Positions 48,841 to 64,000 of a DNA stretch of 64,000 nucleotides are shown piece by piece. The position numbers and the translations under genes were made by a program. Under the pieces are notes generated by a model, which worked only from the letters and a program-made list of their open reading frames with translations, did no database searches and was not told the DNA's origin. The stretch comes from Streptomyces sp. WMMC500 (GTDB lineage Bacteria; Actinomycetota; Actinomycetes; Streptomycetales; Streptomycetaceae), in assembly GCF_027497195.1 (NCBI RefSeq), contig NZ_CP114905.1, positions 6,707,001-6,771,000 of the forward strand. Reading direction: 5' to 3'. How positions within the stretch are numbered: position 1 is the stretch's first letter; each line of letters begins with the position of its first letter.

Positions 48841-49857
48841 CTACGGCCGCAGCAGCACCTTGCCGACGGCGGGGTCGGTGCCGCCGACGAGGCCGACGGC
48901 CTTCTCGTACGCGTCGAGGGGCAGTTCGTGGGTGATCAGCGCGGCCGGGTCCAGCAGCCCGGCGCCGAGCGCGCGCACCGCGTACGACCACGCCGCCGGC
49001 GGGGCGCCGAAGACGCCGAGGACGGCGACCTGGCGCATCGACAGCTCCAGCGGGTCGATGCCCGCCGCGCCGCCCGGCGGGATGCCCGTGACCACGGCCC
49101 GCCCGCCGCGGCGCGCCAGCGCCACCGCGGCCACCGCCGACCGCGCCGCACCCGCCGTCTCCACCACCATGTCGTACGCCCCCGCCAGGCCGGCGGTGTC
49201 GCCGGGCGCCACCGTCCGGGCGCCGCACACCCGCGCCTGCGCGGCCCGTTCCTCCCGCGGCTCGACCACCAGCAGCTCCGCGGGGGAGTACGCGGCGAGC
49301 AACTGCACCGCCAGCAGCCCCAGCGTGCCGCCGCCGACGACGGCCACCCGCTCGCCCGGCAGCGGCCCCCCGCGCAGCACCGCCGCCGCGGCGACCGCCG
49401 CCGGCTCCAGCAGCGCGGCGGCGCGCAGGTCGGCGGCGTCGTCCAGGACGTGCAGCAGCGTCGCCGGCACCGTCACGGTCTCCGCGAACGCCCCGGGCCG
49501 GGTGAACCCCGTCTCGTCGTACGGCCCCTCGCACAGGTTCGGCTCGCCGGCCCGGCAGCGCGCGCACACCTGGCAGCGGCGGAAGCCCTCGGCGACGACC
49601 TTCCGCCCGCCCAGCTCCTCGCCGACGCCCGGCCCGACGGCCTCGACGGTCCCCGACCACTCGTGGCCGGGCGTCAGGGGGTACGTGACGTAGCCGGCCG
49701 GCCGGGTGCCGTCGTACACCTCGCGGTCGCTGCCGCACACCCCCGCCGCGTACACCCGCACCCGCACCTCGCCGGGCCGGAGCAGCCCGGTCGCCACGCT
49801 CTCGACCCGCACCCGGCCCGGGCGCTCCAGCACGACCGCGCGGTGGGCCTCAGCCAT
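48841..49857 (-). CDS. zinc-dependent alcohol dehydrogenase (sugar/polyol type)
   Basis: The 338-residue MDR enzyme has catalytic zinc ligands C41 (AGVCGSD) and H65-E66 (PGHEWSG), the structural zinc cluster C95, C98, C101, C109, and the dinucleotide motif VAVVGGGTLGLLAVQLLA. It resembles threonine/sorbitol/galactitol-type dehydrogenases. Its start overlaps the end of the aldonate dehydratase gene by 8 bp, so it probably acts in the same pathway, either on the aldose or on the keto-deoxy product. No signal peptide. Confidence 0.88.
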   Translation of the reverse strand: MAEAHRAVVLERPGRVRVESVATGLLRPGEVRVRVYAAGVCGSDREVYDGTRPAGYVTYPLTPGHEWSGTVEAVGPGVGEELGGRKVVAEGFRRCQVCARCRAGEPNLCEGPYDETGFTRPGAFAETVTVPATLLHVLDDAADLRAAALLEPAAVAAAAVLRGGPLPGERVAVVGGGTLGLLAVQLLAAYSPAELLVVEPREERAAQARVCGARTVAPGDTAGLAGAYDMVVETAGAARSAVAAVALARRGGRAVVTGIPPGGAAGIDPLELSMRQVAVLGVFGAPPAAWSYAVRALGAGLLDPAALITHELPLDAYEKAVGLVGGTDPAVGKVLLRP

Positions 49858-51001
49858 CGGGGTTCCTCTTCTCCCAGCCCTCGGCCCACAGGTCGAAGTG
49901 CGCCCGCTGCTGCGGGAACTCCGCCGCCGCGTCGGTGTCCAGCTCCACCCCCAGGCCCGGGGCCGACGAGCGGGCGAAGTAGCCGTCGACCACCTCGGGC
50001 GCGCCCTTGACGACCTCCTTGATCTCCGCGTCGGCGAAGTCGTTGAAGTGCTCCAGGATCTTGAAGTTGGGCGTGCAGAAGCCGACCTGCAAGGAGGCCG
50101 CGGTCAGCACCGGGCCGCCGACGTTGTGCGGCGCGACCAGCACGTAGTGGGTCTCGGCGGTGGCGGCGAGCTTGCGGGTCTCCAGGATGCCGCCGACGTG
50201 TCCCACGTCCGGCTGGACGATGTCGGCGGCCTGGCTCTCGAACAGCTCGCGGAACTCGATCCGGTCGTGGATCCGCTCCCCGGTCGCCACCGGCAGGTCC
50301 ACCTTCCGCGCCACCTTCGCCAGCGCCTTCAGGTTCTCCGGCGGCACCGGCTCCTCCAGCCACGCCGGCCGGAACGGGGCCATCTCCCGGGCCAGCCGCA
50401 CCGCGGTGGCCGGTGAGAAGCGGCCGTGCATCTCCAGCATCACCTCCACCTCGTCGCCGACGGCGTCGCGCACGGCCTCGATGAGGGAGACGGCGTAGCG
50501 GGACTCGGCGTGGTCCAGCTCGAAACGGCCCGCGCCGAACGGGTCGATCTTCAGCGCCCGGTAGCCGCGCTCGACCACCCTGCGGGCCGCCTCGTGGTAC
50601 GCCTCCGGGGTGCGCTCGGTGGTGTACCAGCCGTTGGCGTACGCCTTGACCCGGTCGGTCACCGCGCCGCCGAGCAACTGCCACACGGGCACACCCAGCG
50701 CCTTGCCCTTGATGTCCCAGCAGGCCGTCTCGACGCACGCGATCCCCGACATCACGATCTCGCCGGCCCGGCCGAAGTCGCCGTACTTCATCCGGCGGAC
50801 CAGGTCCTCGATCGCGAACGGGTCGGAGCCCGCGATGTGGTTCGCCTCCGCCTCGCGGAGATAGCCGACGAGGGCGTCGGTGTGGCCCAGCATCCGGGTC
50901 TCGCCGACCCCGGTCAGGCCCTCGTCGGTGTGCACTTGGACGTAGGTCAGGTTGCGCCAGGGGGTGCCGACCACGTGCGTGCTGATTCCGGTGATGCGCA
51001 C
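49850..51001 (-). CDS. enolase-superfamily aldonate dehydratase (galactonate dehydratase-like)
   Basis: The 383-residue protein belongs to the mandelate racemase/muconate lactonizing family. Residues of the D-galactonate-dehydratase-like group are visible: RALKIDPFG, metal ligands in EMHGRF, LEEPVPPEN and GERI, the QPDVGHVGGI strand and the base His in APHNVGGP. It would convert an aldonate (for example galactonate, fuconate or arabinonate) to 2-keto-3-deoxyaldonate. The GTG at 51001 has AAGGAG 9 nt upstream; longer frames run into the operator at 51030-51050. It forms an operon with the alcohol dehydrogenase. Confidence 0.85.
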   Translation of the reverse strand: MRITGISTHVVGTPWRNLTYVQVHTDEGLTGVGETRMLGHTDALVGYLREAEANHIAGSDPFAIEDLVRRMKYGDFGRAGEIVMSGIACVETACWDIKGKALGVPVWQLLGGAVTDRVKAYANGWYTTERTPEAYHEAARRVVERGYRALKIDPFGAGRFELDHAESRYAVSLIEAVRDAVGDEVEVMLEMHGRFSPATAVRLAREMAPFRPAWLEEPVPPENLKALAKVARKVDLPVATGERIHDRIEFRELFESQAADIVQPDVGHVGGILETRKLAATAETHYVLVAPHNVGGPVLTAASLQVGFCTPNFKILEHFNDFADAEIKEVVKGAPEVVDGYFARSSAPGLGVELDTDAAAEFPQQRAHFDLWAEGWEKRNPDG

Positions 51002-51029
51002 GGCTGCGGGCTCCTTCACCGTGTTCGAG

Positions 51030-51050
51030 ATTTCGTCAGTCGTTCGAAAT
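51030..51050. promoter_or_regulatory. IclR-type operator of the dehydratase operon
   Basis: ATTTCG-N9-CGAAAT is a perfect 6-bp inverted repeat 28 bp before the dehydratase start. The spacing and left half match the site in front of iclR at 33243-33263. Control by that IclR protein is inferred. Confidence 0.65.
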
Positions 51051-51091
51051 GCTGGCGCGACAGTAAGGAGGCAAGCGGCAGGTGTCAACGG

Positions 51092-52198
51092 TCAGCGCAC
51101 GGCGAACTCGTAGACCGTGGCCGAACGGTAATGCTCGCCGGGCCGCAGCACGGTCGAGGGGAAGTGCGGGTGGTGCGGTGCGTCGGCGAAGTGCTGGGTC
51201 TCCAGCGCGAGTCCGTCACCCGGACGGTATGCCCGCCCGGAGAGCCCGGTGAACGACGGGAAGACGAAGTTCGCGGTGTAGAGCTGCAGTCCGGGCTCGG
51301 TGGTCAGCACCCGCAGCACCCGGCCCGAGGCCGGCGAGCGGACCTCGGCCACCGGCTCGGGTCCGGCGGTGACGCCCTTGTCGAGCACGAAGTTCTGGTC
51401 GTACCCGCGGCCGATCAGCAACTGAGGGTGCCCGGAGCGCAGTTCGGCGCCGACGGGGCGCGCGGTGCGGAAGTCGAACGGGGTGCCCGCCACGTCCGCG
51501 ATCTCGCCGGTCGGCGCCGAGGTGGGCGTGTTGACGGTGAACCGGCTGGCGGCGATGCGCAGCCGGTGGTCCTCGACGCTCCCGCTGCCCTCGCCGTCGA
51601 GGTTGACGTACGAGTGGTTCGTGAGGCTCACCACCGTCGGCGCGTCGGTGGCCGCCTCGTAGTCGAAGCGCAGCGCGCCCCCGGCGGTCACGGTGTACGT
51701 CGCCCGCACCTGGAGCGTGCCGGGGAAGCCCTCCTCCCCGTCCGGGCTCGTCCGCGACAGCAGCAGCGCGGCGGCACCCGGCGCGGCCGGCGCCTCGGCC
51801 GCGGCCCACACCCGCTTGTCGAAGCCGCGGGCGCCGCCGTGCAGGCAGTTGGGGCCGTCGTTGGCGGGCAGCGCGTACGTGCGGCCGTCGAGGGCGAACG
51901 AGGCCCCCGCGATGCGGTTGGCGTACCGCCCGATGAGCGCGCCGAAGTACGGGTCCGCGTGGGCCACGTACTCGTCCACGGTCGCCAGCCCCAGCGCCAC
52001 GTTCGCGTACCGCCCGGCCCGGTCCGGCACCTCCACGGACTGCACGATCCCGCCGTACGACAGCACCCGCACCCGGGTGCCGCCCGCGACCAGCGTCCAC
52101 CGCTCGACGGGAGTGCCGTCGGCGAGCTTCCCGAAGGGCTCGGCGGTGACGGAGGGCGCCGGCGCGGCGTCGGGCGGGGGCAGGGGAGTCTCGGCCAT
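51092..52198 (-). CDS. galM: cytoplasmic aldose 1-epimerase (galactose mutarotase)
   Basis: The 368-residue protein is a paralogue of the exported mutarotase at 42-44 kb but has no signal peptide. Catalytic blocks are FGALIGRYANRIAGA, DGPNCLHGGARGFDKRVW (His), VVSLTNHSYVNLDGEGSG (His) and ETQHFADAPHHPHFPSTVLRPGEHY (Glu). It lies upstream of the dehydratase operon with 90 bp between them, which contain the IclR-type site. It would supply the anomer for the sugar dehydrogenase inside the cell. Confidence 0.9.
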   Translation of the reverse strand: MAETPLPPPDAAPAPSVTAEPFGKLADGTPVERWTLVAGGTRVRVLSYGGIVQSVEVPDRAGRYANVALGLATVDEYVAHADPYFGALIGRYANRIAGASFALDGRTYALPANDGPNCLHGGARGFDKRVWAAAEAPAAPGAAALLLSRTSPDGEEGFPGTLQVRATYTVTAGGALRFDYEAATDAPTVVSLTNHSYVNLDGEGSGSVEDHRLRIAASRFTVNTPTSAPTGEIADVAGTPFDFRTARPVGAELRSGHPQLLIGRGYDQNFVLDKGVTAGPEPVAEVRSPASGRVLRVLTTEPGLQLYTANFVFPSFTGLSGRAYRPGDGLALETQHFADAPHHPHFPSTVLRPGEHYRSATVYEFAVR

Positions 52199-52256
52199 GG
52201 GGAGACCTTATGCGCCCCGCCCGGCCGTCCCGCGCGCCGCCCGACGCCCGGCCCGC

Positions 52257-53159
52257 CTACTCCTCCCGGGCCGCGCGGAGCTTCTCGTACGCGATCTCCG
52301 CCAGGACCCGCTGGCCCTCCTCGTCCGGGTGGAAGGAGTCCCAGCGGCTCAGGTGGTCGCCGGTGAAGGCGTACTGGAACGCCGCCCCGTCGTCGTACAC
52401 GCACAGCGGGTGCTTCCCGCACTCCTCCTGGAGCACCGCGTTGAACTCCACCACCCGCTCCTGCACCGCGTCGCGCCGGCCGGTCGCGGACACGCCGAGG
52501 TCCGACGGGTCCTCCAGCATCGACTGGCAGATGCCCAGCGACCAGATCTGCCGGGTCAGCGCGCTGCCGCGGCCCACCTCCCACAGCCGCATCAGGCTCG
52601 GCACGCTGGAGACGTACACCTGCGTCCGCGGCAGGTCGGCCGCCAGCCGGTCCAGCGAGTCCGCCACCGCCGTGCGGAAGTCCGCCACCGGCGTCATCCC
52701 CGCCGCGCTGTCCGTGCAGGCGTCGTTGGCGCCGATGAGGACCGTCACGAGGTCCGGGCGGCGGGCGATGGCCTCGCCCGTCTGGACCGGCAGATCCGCC
52801 ACCTGCGCGCCCGAACGGGCGAAATTCCAGGTGTGCCCCGACGGCTTGTCCAGCAACCGCCCCGCGAGGCTGTCCACGTCCTTCGAGGTGCCCGTCGACC
52901 AGGACTTCTCCGGGCAGTCCGAGAGGGGTTCGCAGGCGTGGAAGCCGCGCGTGATGGAGTCGCCGAGCGCGGCCACCGACCGCGGCGGCCGGGGCGCCGC
53001 CCTCGCCTGCTCCGACGGTGCCCCCACGTCCTCGGCGCCGCCTGACGGCGCGGCAGATCCCCTGTCCCTCCCCTGTGTCGAGCCCTCGCCGGTGCAGCCG
53101 GCGAGGACCAGTGACCACGCGACCGCCCCCGAGAAGACGAGTGCCGCCCCTTTGCGCAT
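52257..53159 (-). CDS. SGNH/GDSL-family lipoprotein hydrolase
   Basis: The 300-residue protein has a lipobox (LVLAGC, Cys about residue 22), a disordered Ser/Gly linker and an SGNH hydrolase domain: block I VAALGDSITRGF (nucleophile Ser), block III IGANDAC, and block V DSFHPDEEG (Asp and His). Extra cysteines (about six) suggest disulphides. Such surface esterases can remove acetyl or feruloyl groups from xylan, which would match the neighbouring glucuronoxylan genes, but lipase activity is equally possible. Confidence 0.85.
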   Translation of the reverse strand: MRKGAALVFSGAVAWSLVLAGCTGEGSTQGRDRGSAAPSGGAEDVGAPSEQARAAPRPPRSVAALGDSITRGFHACEPLSDCPEKSWSTGTSKDVDSLAGRLLDKPSGHTWNFARSGAQVADLPVQTGEAIARRPDLVTVLIGANDACTDSAAGMTPVADFRTAVADSLDRLAADLPRTQVYVSSVPSLMRLWEVGRGSALTRQIWSLGICQSMLEDPSDLGVSATGRRDAVQERVVEFNAVLQEECGKHPLCVYDDGAAFQYAFTGDHLSRWDSFHPDEEGQRVLAEIAYEKLRAAREE

Positions 53160-59748: not shown

Positions 59749-59971
59749 GCGGGATGGTGGGGGACCGGTCCCCGCACGCGTCTGACAGCGTGCCGACTGC
59801 CTGCGCCCGACCGCGTCACCACGGCACCACCCCTGCTGTACGAAGCTCTCCGACGCGGCCGCGCCGTGCAGGCGGCATCGCCGTGCGCAACCTCGCGGTG
59901 TTCCACCACAACCGTTCGGCGCCGGGCAGATCCCCTCGGTCGGCCCGGTGCTCCGACCACAGTGAGGCCCT

Positions 59972-62900
59972 GTGAAGAGAACGACTCGCGCGCTTCTGGT
60001 GGGCGTCTTAGCCCTCGGAGTCTCCAGCGTGTACCAGCCGGTCGCGTCGGCCGAGACAGCCGAGATCGGTGCGCCCCTGCCGGTCACGGCCGTCACCGCC
60101 AGCGCCGATGACGGCAACGTGCCCGAAAACACCCTCGACGACGATCTGAGTACCCGGTGGTCCGCGGAGGGCGACGGGGTGTGGATCCGCTACGACCTCG
60201 GCTCCGTGCAGACCGTCGGCTCGGCGTCGATCGCCTGGCACCAGGGAGACACCAGAAGGAGCACCTTCGACGTCGAACTGTCCGACGACGGACAGCAGTG
60301 GACGCCGGCCCTGTCACGGAAAGTGAGCAGCGGGACCAGCCTCCAGCCGCAGAACTACGACTTCGCCGACGCCTCCGCCCGCTACGTGCGCATCGTCGGC
60401 CACGGCAACACCTTCAACGACTGGACCAGCATCACCGAGACCACCGTCCACGGTGAGGACGGCGGAGGCGGCGGCGGCGAGTGTGAGTACCCGGCCGACG
60501 TCCTGGACCTGACGAACTGGTACATCGGGCTGCCGACCGGCGAGGAGGAGTCGCCGACCAACGTCTACCAGCCGGAACTCGACACCTTCTCGGTCGACCC
60601 GTGGTTCACCACGACCGCGGACTGCGACGCCGTCCAGTTCCGCGCCGCCGTCAACGGGGTCACCACCAGCGGCTCCAACTATCCGCGCTCGGAACTGCGC
60701 GAGATGACGGACTCGGGGGAGACCAAGGCGGCCTGGTCCGCGAACTCCGGCACGCACACGATGGTGATCGACCAGGCCATCACGGACGTCCCGGAAGAGA
60801 AGCCGCATGTCGTCGCCGGGCAGATCCACGACTCCTCGGACGACGTCTCGGTCTTCCGCCTGGAGGACACCAAGCTCTACATCACCTCTCCCGAGGACAG
60901 CAATCACCACCTCGTGACCGACGACTACGAGCTCGGCACGAGGTTCCAGGCGAAGTTCGTGGTCAGCGACGGCGAGATCAAGGCCTACTACAACGGCGAG
61001 CTGGAGACCACGGTCCCGGCGGACTTCTCCGGCGGCTACTTCAAGGCCGGCGCGTACACCCAGGCCAACTGCGAGCGCTCGTCGCCGTGCAGCGACGACA
61101 ACTACGGCCAGGTGGAGATCTACGATCTGAGCGTCAGCCACGACGACGGTCTGGCGGCCGAGGACCCGACGCAGGCGGCCGACCGGTACGACTGGGGCGA
61201 ACCGCTCCCGGTCTCCGACGAGTTCGACTACACCGGCCCGGTCGACCCCGCGAAGTGGGACGTGCCGTCGGGCAGCGTCGGCGGCACGCCCCAGTGCTGG
61301 GAGGGGCACGAGGGGAACGGCCGCCGGTGCGGGAAGAACAGCACCGTCGCGGACGGCATCATGACCATGCGCGGCGAGGCGAACGGCGACACCGGATGGA
61401 TCCGGCAGAACGTCGACATGCAGTACGGCCGCTGGGAGATCCGGTCCCGCTCCCGGAACACCGGCTCCAGCGGCGGGCTCTACCACCCCCTGCACCTGAT
61501 CTGGCCCACTCACGGCGACCGGCTCAAGAACGGGGAGTACGACTGGGTCGAGTACTCGAACCCCGACGCGCAGTGCCTCTCGGCTTTCCTGCACTACCCG
61601 GACAGCCCGACGGACAAGAAGGAGAACCCCGAACTCTGCCCGGTGGACATGACGCAGTGGCACAACTTCGCGTTCGAGTGGACACCGGAGGAACTGGTCG
61701 GCTACGTCGACGGGGAGGAATGGTTCCGGTTCGCGGACGGCGCGAACGCCGACCGGGGGGACATCCAGACGATGCCCCTGGGGAATCTCGTCATCCAGCT
61801 CGACAACTTCACCGGCGACAGCGGTCTGCGCCCGGCGGTGTTCGAGGTCGACTGGGTCCGGACGTATCCGGTCGGGCCGTCGGACGGCTCTCCGGGTTCT
61901 CCGCTGCCGGTCACGGGAGTCACGGCCAGCGCCGATGACGGCAATGTCCCCGAGAACACCCTGGACGACGATCTGAGTACCCGGTGGTCCGGCGAGGGCG
62001 ACGGGGTGTGGATCCGCTACGACCTCGGCTCCGTACAGACCGTCGGTTCGACGTCGATCGCCTGGCACCAGGGAGACACCAGGAAGAACACCTTCGACGT
62101 GGAGCTGTCCGACGACGGACAGGAGTGGACGCCGGTCCTGTCGGGCAAGGAGAGCAGCGGGACCAGCCTCCAGCCGCAGAACTACGACTTCGCCGACGCC
62201 TCCGCCCGCTACGTGCGCATCGTCGGCCACGGCAACACCTCCAACGACTGGACCAGCATCACCGAGACGGTCGTCCACGGTGAGGACGGCGGCGGCGAGG
62301 ATCCCGGGCCGGGACCCGGCCCCGGCCGTACCGTCGAGGTCGCGGACTCGGACGAGTTGCAGGACGCGATGGGGGACGCGCGCGCCGGGGACCGCATCGT
62401 CCTCGCGGACGGCGCGTACTCGATCGGGAAGATGAGCGGCAAGAACGGCACCGCCGCCGAGCCCGTCACCGTCGTCGCGGAGAACCGCGGTCAGGCGGTG
62501 ATCGAGGACGGGCAGTTGGAGGTGCTCGACTCCTCGTACGTCACCTTCGAGGGTCTGAAGTGGACGAACAGTGACACGTTGAAGATCACCAGCTCGAACA
62601 ACGTGCGGCTGACCCGCAACCACTTCCGGCTGACCGAGGAGGAGTCGCTGAAGTGGGTGATCATCCAGGGTGAGAACAGCCACCACAACCGGATCGATCA
62701 CAATCTCTTCGAGGAGAAGCACGAGCTGGGAAACTTCATCACCATCGACGGATCCGAGACCCAGCAGTCGCAGCATGACCTGATCGACCACAACCACTTC
62801 CGCAACATGGGTCCCCGTGCGGAGAACGAGATGGAAGCCGTCCGGGTCGGCGAGAGCGCGCTCTCCGAGTCGAGCGGATTCACGGTCCTCGAGTCGAACC

Positions 62901-63667
62901 TCTTCGAGAACTGCGACGGCGACCCGGAGATCGTGTCCGTGAAGAGCAACGACAACGTCGTCCGCTACAACACCTTCCGCACCTCTCAGGGCGTGCTCTC
63001 CCAGCGCCACGGGAACCGCGGCTCCTTCTACGGCAACTTCTTCCTCGGGGAGGGGAAGGCGGGAACCGGAGGAATCCGGATCTACGGCCGGGACCACAAG
63101 ATCTACAACAACTACTTCGAGGGCCTGACCGGCTCCGGCTACGACGCCGCGCTCCAGATCGACGGCGGCGACGTGGACACCTCGGGCGCACTGAACGCGC
63201 ACTGGCGCGTCTACCGGGCGACCGTCGTGAACAACACCTTCGTGAACAACGTGTCGAACATCGAGATCGGCGCCAACTACGATCTCGCGCCGGTCGACTC
63301 GGTCGTCGCCGACAACGTGGTCACAGGAAGCCGCGGCAAGCTGTTCAACGAGGTCATGGAGCCGGAGGACATGACGTACGCCGGCAACATCGCCTGGCCC
63401 ACGGGCTCGGCGAGCGTCGGCGTCGACGTGCCCTCCGACGCCGTCAGCCAGGCCGATCCGCTGCTGGACGCCGACGGACCGGTCCAGCGCATCGGAGCCG
63501 GCAGCCCGGCCATCGACGGCGGCACCGGCGACCACGCGTTCGTGACCGACGACATGGACGGTCAGACCCGCTCGGGCGTCGCCGACGCCGGAGCCGACGA
63601 GCGCTCGTCGTCCGCCGTCGCGCGAGCCCCCCTCACCGGGGGCGACGTCGGCCCGAGCGCTCCGTAG
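59972..63667 (+). CDS. multi-catalytic secreted alginate lyase: discoidin-PL7-GH16-discoidin-PL6
   Basis: The 1231-residue protein has a signal peptide (1-27) and five modules. (1) A discoidin/CBM-type domain (36-161). (2) A PL7 alginate lyase (about 171-390) with RSELR (239-243), QIH (284-286) and YFKAGAY (356-362). (3) A GH16-like domain (about 408-632) with the intact E-x-D-x-x-E at 522-527. (4) A second discoidin domain (645-770), nearly a copy of the first. (5) After a Pro-Gly linker, a PL6 right-handed beta-helix (about 786-1195) with K991 and R1012, the spacing seen for Lys/Arg in chondroitinase B. PL7 and PL6 both cut alginate by beta-elimination. GTG start with GAGG 4 nt upstream; codon 13 is TTA. 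Confidence 0.9.
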   Translation: MKRTTRALLVGVLALGVSSVYQPVASAETAEIGAPLPVTAVTASADDGNVPENTLDDDLSTRWSAEGDGVWIRYDLGSVQTVGSASIAWHQGDTRRSTFDVELSDDGQQWTPALSRKVSSGTSLQPQNYDFADASARYVRIVGHGNTFNDWTSITETTVHGEDGGGGGGECEYPADVLDLTNWYIGLPTGEEESPTNVYQPELDTFSVDPWFTTTADCDAVQFRAAVNGVTTSGSNYPRSELREMTDSGETKAAWSANSGTHTMVIDQAITDVPEEKPHVVAGQIHDSSDDVSVFRLEDTKLYITSPEDSNHHLVTDDYELGTRFQAKFVVSDGEIKAYYNGELETTVPADFSGGYFKAGAYTQANCERSSPCSDDNYGQVEIYDLSVSHDDGLAAEDPTQAADRYDWGEPLPVSDEFDYTGPVDPAKWDVPSGSVGGTPQCWEGHEGNGRRCGKNSTVADGIMTMRGEANGDTGWIRQNVDMQYGRWEIRSRSRNTGSSGGLYHPLHLIWPTHGDRLKNGEYDWVEYSNPDAQCLSAFLHYPDSPTDKKENPELCPVDMTQWHNFAFEWTPEELVGYVDGEEWFRFADGANADRGDIQTMPLGNLVIQLDNFTGDSGLRPAVFEVDWVRTYPVGPSDGSPGSPLPVTGVTASADDGNVPENTLDDDLSTRWSGEGDGVWIRYDLGSVQTVGSTSIAWHQGDTRKNTFDVELSDDGQEWTPVLSGKESSGTSLQPQNYDFADASARYVRIVGHGNTSNDWTSITETVVHGEDGGGEDPGPGPGPGRTVEVADSDELQDAMGDARAGDRIVLADGAYSIGKMSGKNGTAAEPVTVVAENRGQAVIEDGQLEVLDSSYVTFEGLKWTNSDTLKITSSNNVRLTRNHFRLTEEESLKWVIIQGENSHHNRIDHNLFEEKHELGNFITIDGSETQQSQHDLIDHNHFRNMGPRAENEMEAVRVGESALSESSGFTVLESNLFENCDGDPEIVSVKSNDNVVRYNTFRTSQGVLSQRHGNRGSFYGNFFLGEGKAGTGGIRIYGRDHKIYNNYFEGLTGSGYDAALQIDGGDVDTSGALNAHWRVYRATVVNNTFVNNVSNIEIGANYDLAPVDSVVADNVVTGSRGKLFNEVMEPEDMTYAGNIAWPTGSASVGVDVPSDAVSQADPLLDADGPVQRIGAGSPAIDGGTGDHAFVTDDMDGQTRSGVADAGADERSSSAVARAPLTGGDVGPSAP

Positions 63668-63676
63668 GACGCGCGG

Positions 63677-63712
63677 CACGACCGGCGGCGGCCCCGGCCG
63701 CCGCCGGTCGTG
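63677..63712 (+). terminator. strong hairpin terminator after the alginate lyase gene
   Basis: A 17-bp perfect stem (63677-63693 with 63696-63712) with a 2-nt loop begins 9 bp after the stop. It is the strongest hairpin seen in the window. Confidence 0.85.
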
Positions 63713-63790
63713 TCCTCGCGACGGTCAGGCGACCCACTCCCGGGAGACGCACGTGAACATTCCGAACGCCCCGACAGGACGGTGACGACG

Positions 63791-64000
63791 ATGAGGAAAG
63801 GTTTATCGGTGAGACGCATTCTGACCGCCGCGCTGTGCGCGTGCACGGCGATCGGCTCGGTGGCGCTGCTCAGCCCGACGGCGTCGGCGGCGACGCTGCC
63901 CATCAGGACGGCGACGGCCAGCGCCGACGACGGCAACGAGCCGGCCAACGCGATCGACGGCGACCTGTCCACCCGGTGGTCCGGTGCCGGTGACGGCGTC
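63791..64000 (+). CDS. secreted discoidin-domain protein (partial, continues beyond window)
   Basis: The visible 70 residues are a signal peptide (about 1-33) and the first part of a discoidin module (TATASADDGNEPANAIDGDLSTRWSGAGDGV) almost identical to those in the preceding alginate lyase. The catalytic part lies outside the window; another polysaccharide lyase or hydrolase is likely. ATG at 63791 would place a TTA codon at position 5; GTG at 63782 is an in-frame upstream option, and GTG at 63809 with AAAGG 7 nt upstream would exclude the TTA. Confidence 0.8.
   Translation, partial: MRKGLSVRRILTAALCACTAIGSVALLSPTASAATLPIRTATASADDGNEPANAIDGDLSTRWSGAGDGV

Follow-up and report, generated by a model that had tools for sequence, protein, structure and literature searches.

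Enzymes that join alginate lyase modules to other catalytic modules in a single chain were described by Xu et al. (ISME J, May 2026; PMC13235733), who looked for additional glycoside hydrolase modules across the alginate-lyase families of CAZy. Four types were named, including PL7+GH16+PL6 (CBM32-PL7-GH16-CBM32-PL6) and PL7+GH16 (CBM32-PL7-GH16). One marine-derived representative each was assayed for three of the types, PL7+GH16+PL6 among them, and jointly the three representatives showed alginate lyase and glucan activity, the latter including β-1,3/1,4-glucan and carboxymethyl cellulose (CMC). For all types except GH5+PL31 the hosts were called primarily Actinomycetes, and the enzymes strongly marine-associated, with only marine-derived homologs counted. 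Here we analysed a 64,000-nucleotide stretch (the window) of the genome of Streptomyces sp. WMMC500 (assembly GCF_027497195.1, contig NZ_CP114905.1, positions 6,707,001 to 6,771,000 of the forward strand). Near its end, at window positions 59972-63667 on the + strand, one gene encodes the modules CBM32-PL7-GH16-CBM32-PL6, in this order, behind a signal-peptide-like N-terminus. The protein is a further member of the PL7+GH16+PL6 type, an architecture already described and assayed in 2026.

The module order was observed directly in a Pfam scan of the 1231-residue translation, in which all modules scored above their respective cut-offs. The features of the gene are as follows.

59972..60076, +: signal-peptide-like start (residues ~1-35), recognised by eye from a basic N-end, a hydrophobic core and small residues before the first module
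60077..60451, +: CBM32 (F5/8 type C), N-terminal copy (residues ~36-160); Pfam; matched by the CBM32s of the alginate lyases 7w12 and 5zu5
60476..61147, +: PL7 alginate lyase module (residues 169-392); Pfam Alginate_lyase2/PL7 at residues 178-390, 8.8e-43; nearest solved relative, polyguluronate lyase 1uai, 3.4e-95; catalytic residues kept
61163..61891, +: GH16 glucanase module (residues 398-640); ExDxxE at 522-527; Pfam Glyco_hydro_16 at residues 471-596, 6.3e-6, 26.2 bits (cut-off 22); laminarinase profile match 1.6e-13
61904..62305, +: CBM32, C-terminal copy (residues 645-778); second stretch found by Pfam; the AlyQ CBM32 7d29 matches residues 647-777
62327..63664, +: PL6 alginate lyase module (residues 786-1231); K991 and R1012; Pfam Chondroitinas_B/PL6 at residues 790-1111, 1e-49; nearest solved relatives, alginate lyases 7o84/7o7a (2.3e-45) and AlyGC (7e-40)

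The PL7 motifs RxExR, QxH and YxKAGxYxQ (PMC8618178) were all present, as RSELR (239-243), QIH (284-286) and YFKAGAYTQ (356-364). Residues E241, R243, Q284, H286, Y356 and Y362 were kept in 32/32 aligned rows and R239 in 31/32; the row counts here and below include the WMMC500 protein, and the three alignments excluded rows shorter than ~190, 200 and 380 residues. The catalytic motif of GH16 follows the rule ExDxxE, and its three acids, E522, D524 and E527, were kept in all 42 rows. In the PL6 module, K991 and R1012, spaced 21 residues apart, were kept in 15/15 rows. The solved-structure match to this module names R241 of AlyGC, and K220 of AlyGC is, we take it, the Lys of the PL6 catalytic pair. 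Chondroitinase B matched the PL6 module at only 3.1e-18 in a full-length search and was rejected as its identity, since solved alginate lyases match far better. The GH16 module was distant from solved enzymes; the nearest, laminarinase 3iln, matched at 4.1e-9 with the single sequence, and solved laminarinases at 1.6e-13 with a 27-row profile. The F5/8 type C profile, which we take to stand for CBM32, was matched in two stretches (best at residues 41-156, 6.6e-34), and among solved proteins both CBM32s were nearest to those of alginate lyases. In one such lyase the CBM32 aids action on alginate gel and not on soluble alginate (PMC8776709).

The earlier note on this DNA, made from the letters alone, had proposed one secreted-type chain with PL7, GH16, PL6 and two CBM32s, and both the Pfam scan and the signal-peptide-like start agree with it. 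The significant HMM scores for PL7 and PL6 were a check it had asked for. R243, E522 and K991 fell at the positions it gave, the GH16 module has all three catalytic acids, and the Lys/Arg pair of PL6 is in place. Its view that the domain order was undescribed did not hold, as the order is printed with assays (PMC13235733).

The open reading frame (ORF) was open throughout and starts with GTG. GAGG lies directly upstream, and with a stop in the same frame at 59963, GTG 59972 is the sole start candidate. Because the same five modules occur in a single ORF in other genomes, at 77-86% identity, the fusion is not an accident of assembly. A frame or assembly artefact was rejected as its source, given the single-ORF form in at least 5/392 genomes of the genus.

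The genus survey covered 392 genomes, the WMMC500 genome (G000) included, and architectures were mapped only for the fetched loci. All five modules were found in one ORF in at least five genomes (G000, G047, G050, G183 and G022, the last having lost its N-end at a contig end). In G082 the five modules are split over two ORFs, and G194 holds a fragment. At least four genomes (G120, G297, G037, G185) encode CBM32-PL7-GH16 in a single ORF. A more distant GH16 group, 50-53% identical, was present in seven congeners among the matches listed, and the ORFs called in its fetched loci included no lyase module. At a threshold of 0.001 the GH16 profile matched 84/394 genomes of the class: WMMC500 itself at 8e-137, two congeners at 4e-111 to 4e-112 (293-residue frames) and the rest at 4e-51 or weaker. 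The GH16 module had no match in viral contigs. In the plasmid search 37 of 72,556 records matched some module, none covering 80% of the query; a Deinococcus plasmid match was set aside: the protein has a discoidin domain, and neither a lyase nor GH16 is annotated in the stretch displayed. The earlier note had asked whether the architecture is common and described: described it is (PMC13235733), common it is not.

Named genomes were scanned with GH16 alignment words taken from fused GH16s, which gave 44 loci. The named and genus surveys overlap, several contigs being of equal length in both (for example, L062 and G022, L073 and G082, L057 and G050), so their counts are not additive. GH16 was located in 43 loci; in L100 the scan gave a weak partial match (32% over 81 residues) and no GH16 was found on locating. 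All 43 bear actinomycete names and the published hosts are primarily Actinomycetes (PMC13235733), so such an enzyme is not the surprise in an actinomycete that it had been taken for. Eleven loci were of the trimodular kind (PL7, GH16 and PL6), six of them complete (L057, L058, L059, L061, L063, L071) and five imperfect (L062, cut by the contig start; L060, without PL6; L073, frame-split; L077, cut; L098, a fragment). Named Streptomyces are among the carriers of all five modules in one ORF. The frame split of L073 falls between PL7 and GH16. Sixteen loci were of the PL7-GH16 kind, two of these being imperfect (L091, no CBM32 detected; L094, frame-split), and six had a separate GH16 ORF with PL7 or PL7-PL6 in the locus (L074, L083, L085, L086, L087, L090). 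No lyase module was located in the other ten (L075, L078, L082, L084, L092, L093, L095, L096, L097, L099), of which L082 reaches 19 residues into a possible PL7 before its contig ends. In 33/43 GH16 loci, PL7 and/or PL6 was thus observed either in the GH16 ORF itself or in one nearby, a fraction biased upward because the scan words derive from fused GH16s. L078 and L082 are titled Rhodococcus rhodnii NRRL B-16535; their GH16 groups with Kibdelosporangium on the tree, and the title may be a mislabel.

We read the WMMC500 protein, with a probability of roughly 0.9, as a multimodular polysaccharide-degrading enzyme of the PL7+GH16+PL6 type that acts on alginate and an embedded glucan. Its N-terminus predicts secretion. 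The two CBM32 modules would hold the enzyme on alginate, where PL7 would make β-elimination cuts in G-rich or mixed blocks, a preference suggested by the QIH motif and the polyguluronate-lyase relative. PL6 would cut further alginate blocks through the Lys/Arg mechanism of its family, and GH16 would hydrolyse the embedded β-1,3/1,4-type glucan while the alginate matrix is opening, an order of action that is likewise predicted. Alginate with embedded cell-wall glucan appears to be the best reading of the substrate because the activities printed for the type include β-1,3/1,4-glucan and CMC (PMC13235733). The earlier proposal of a chain aimed at alginate and a second polysaccharide is supported.

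Several points weigh against this reading. The activity of the WMMC500 protein is predicted, the published activities are printed for three representatives together and not enzyme by enzyme (PMC13235733), and QIH fails as a predictor of block preference in several PL7 enzymes (PMC8618178). The count of 33/43 is biased towards fused forms, and ten loci lack a located lyase. No oligoalginate lyase was recognised in the WMMC500 genome, in searches that did not extend to PL15 or the later pathway, and the single PF07940 match there also matches Hepar_II_III_N. The trimodular chain may also not be the only alginate lyase of the strain, because two further ORFs match PF05426.

That the GH16 module is a laminarinase (β-1,3-glucanase) agrees with its nearest solved relatives, which are laminarinases and endo-1,3-β-glucanases. 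The similarity to them is low, however, the printed activities are on β-1,3/1,4-glucan and CMC, and the part of the paper available to us does not name laminarin as a substrate tried with this type (PMC13235733). We consider a laminarinase unlikely, and laminarin, which the earlier note had put forward, is not established as the substrate. Exopolysaccharide-type genes lie ~3-9 kb downstream on the other strand, and the gene might belong with them and trim the cell's own polymer. This is highly improbable, as the 20-kb loci surrounding the gene in G183, G047 and G082 contained no match to those neighbours, and in G050 the companion gene described below is followed by an NmrA-like gene which in G000 lies past the exopolysaccharide-type block. 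The block is not conserved and was rejected as gene context.

Coastal or marine life is plausible: the nearest of the ten trimodular-type proteins compared (86%) is that of S. aculeolatus, a species of the MAR4 clade, whose 16S sequences are 83% from marine habitats (PMC10897937), and the type is called strongly marine-associated, from marine-derived homologs only (PMC13235733). Life on land, with the enzyme attacking bacterial alginate (Pseudomonas/Azotobacter biofilm) and plant or lichen mixed-linkage glucan and not brown algae, is a possibility to which we give somewhat less than even odds. Soil bacteria make alginate, for which a literature search gave no direct support; the names of several carriers point to plants or soil (names only), whereas CNH099 is presumably a marine strain. 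The type strain of S. aculeolatus came from coastal soil (PMC10897937), and S. sabulosicollis, a contig of which carries GH16-CBM32-PL6, was isolated from a sand dune (PMC8137480). Because habitats are available for few strains, and are mixed, neither land nor marine life is settled; the seaweed or marine association proposed earlier is possible.

Downstream of the trimodular gene, a companion gene follows behind a hairpin.

63677..63712, +: strong hairpin between the trimodular gene and the next gene, with a 16-bp inner stem and without a T run
63791..64000, +: companion gene start, likely ATG 63791 in an ORF that opens at 63710; runs beyond the window to genome position 6772104

The RNA fold of the hairpin region (63668-63730) had an energy of -49.5 kcal/mol (z -4.37), and 0/200 shuffles were as good. 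The companion gene (L032:6791-8104) encodes a CBM32 and a right-handed β-helix. Strong matches to the β-helix were found in 4/392 genus genomes, each beside a trimodular gene (the WMMC500 genome, G047, G050 and G183), and four other genus genomes matched weakly (1e-8 to 2e-13); in G022 and G082 the ORFs called in the fetched loci included no companion. In the 394 genomes from the family, WMMC500 alone matched strongly and one genome weakly. Among the named loci the companion was found in L057, L058, L059 and L074, the last (Actinosynnema sp. ALI-1.44) carrying it next to genes for CBM32-GH16 and CBM32-PL7-PL6, and it had no match in the other trimodular loci (L060, L061, L062, L063, L071, L073, L077, L098). 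The companion had no NCBIfam match at 0.001, the β-helix profile had a single solved match, at 0.11, and only the general Beta_helix and NosD models matched all 7 members of the companion alignment (7 rows). Its position suggests a possible alginate-active partner. The stronger proposal, that it represents an undescribed alginate-active family (lyase or C5-epimerase) working with the trimodular enzyme, is tentative and rather doubtful, but the gene is a compact candidate for such a new family.

A search of the WMMC500 genome with the trimodular protein found only its own gene and the CBM32 of the companion, so the genome has no second near-kin PL7 or PL6. The two ORFs matching PF05426 Alginate_lyase in Pfam (L131:1135-2400 and L132:1141-2379) scored 56.9 and 44.6 bits against a cut-off of 22.2, and 56.6 and 46.2 bits in a second scan. 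They had no solved relative at 0.001 and could be additional lyases of alginate or of another uronate. The PF07940 gene adjoins a dehydrogenase/Gfo-Idh-MocA fusion, a β-helix ORF and another ORF whose Wzy_C match falls below the cut-off, surroundings that we read as a probable polysaccharide-synthesis region. Beyond the companion, at L032:8290-15339, a β-helix ORF is followed on the other strand by a nucleotide-sugar dehydrogenase gene, two epimerase-family genes and a glycosyltransferase gene; the glycosyltransferase of this exopolysaccharide-type block matched CelA weakly (63 bits against 699). Upstream, at 49850-53159, lie a gene resembling galactonate dehydratase (298.2 bits, cut-off 311), an aldose 1-epimerase gene and a GDSL lipase-family gene.

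The two CBM32s of the WMMC500 protein were 92% identical in residues, and the DNA encoding them (60068-60367 and 61895-62194) 91% identical over 300 nt. Each was more similar to the other than to any of the orthologous copies in the comparison. In a comparison of stretches over 80 residues in 11 proteins, including L060 (without PL6), mutual identity exceeded identity to the orthologues in four (G000, L059, L062, L063) and not in the other seven. This pattern fits occasional gene conversion between both copies within the gene. Trimodular rows formed one group in the PL6 tree (10/15 rows, 100/99) and in the GH16 tree (11/42 rows, 91/88), while in the PL7 tree (10/32 rows) they need two changes. 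Assembly in a single event, with later exchange of PL7 or loss of modules, would fit these trees, which do not decide the matter.

Among known systems, two close solved relatives of single modules, 1uai for PL7 and AlyGC 5gkd for PL6, each matched only their own module, with no match to the other lyase or to GH16. CelAly of Aquimarina (GH5+PL31; PMC13235733) likewise holds an alginate lyase and a glucanase in one chain, but its catalytic families and binding modules differ from those of the WMMC500 protein. The PL7+GH16 enzymes (S. specialis, S. radicis, Crossiella sp. SN42 and others) share the CBM32-PL7-GH16 part and, unlike the WMMC500 protein, are without the second CBM32 and PL6. The CBM32-PL7-PL6 proteins of Saccharothrix, Kibdelosporangium and Actinosynnema have CBM32, PL7 and PL6 in common with it (PL6 76-83% identical in L074, L083, L085, L086 and L087), whereas their GH16 is encoded in a separate adjoining gene. 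The PL7+GH16+PL6 enzymes have an identical module order; the published representative is marine-derived and was assayed (PMC13235733), and the WMMC500 protein is known from its sequence. Two alginate lyases and a glucanase are thus packed in one actinomycete chain, and the same modules are re-sorted into adjoining genes in related families, which supports a joint attack on alginate and embedded glucan.

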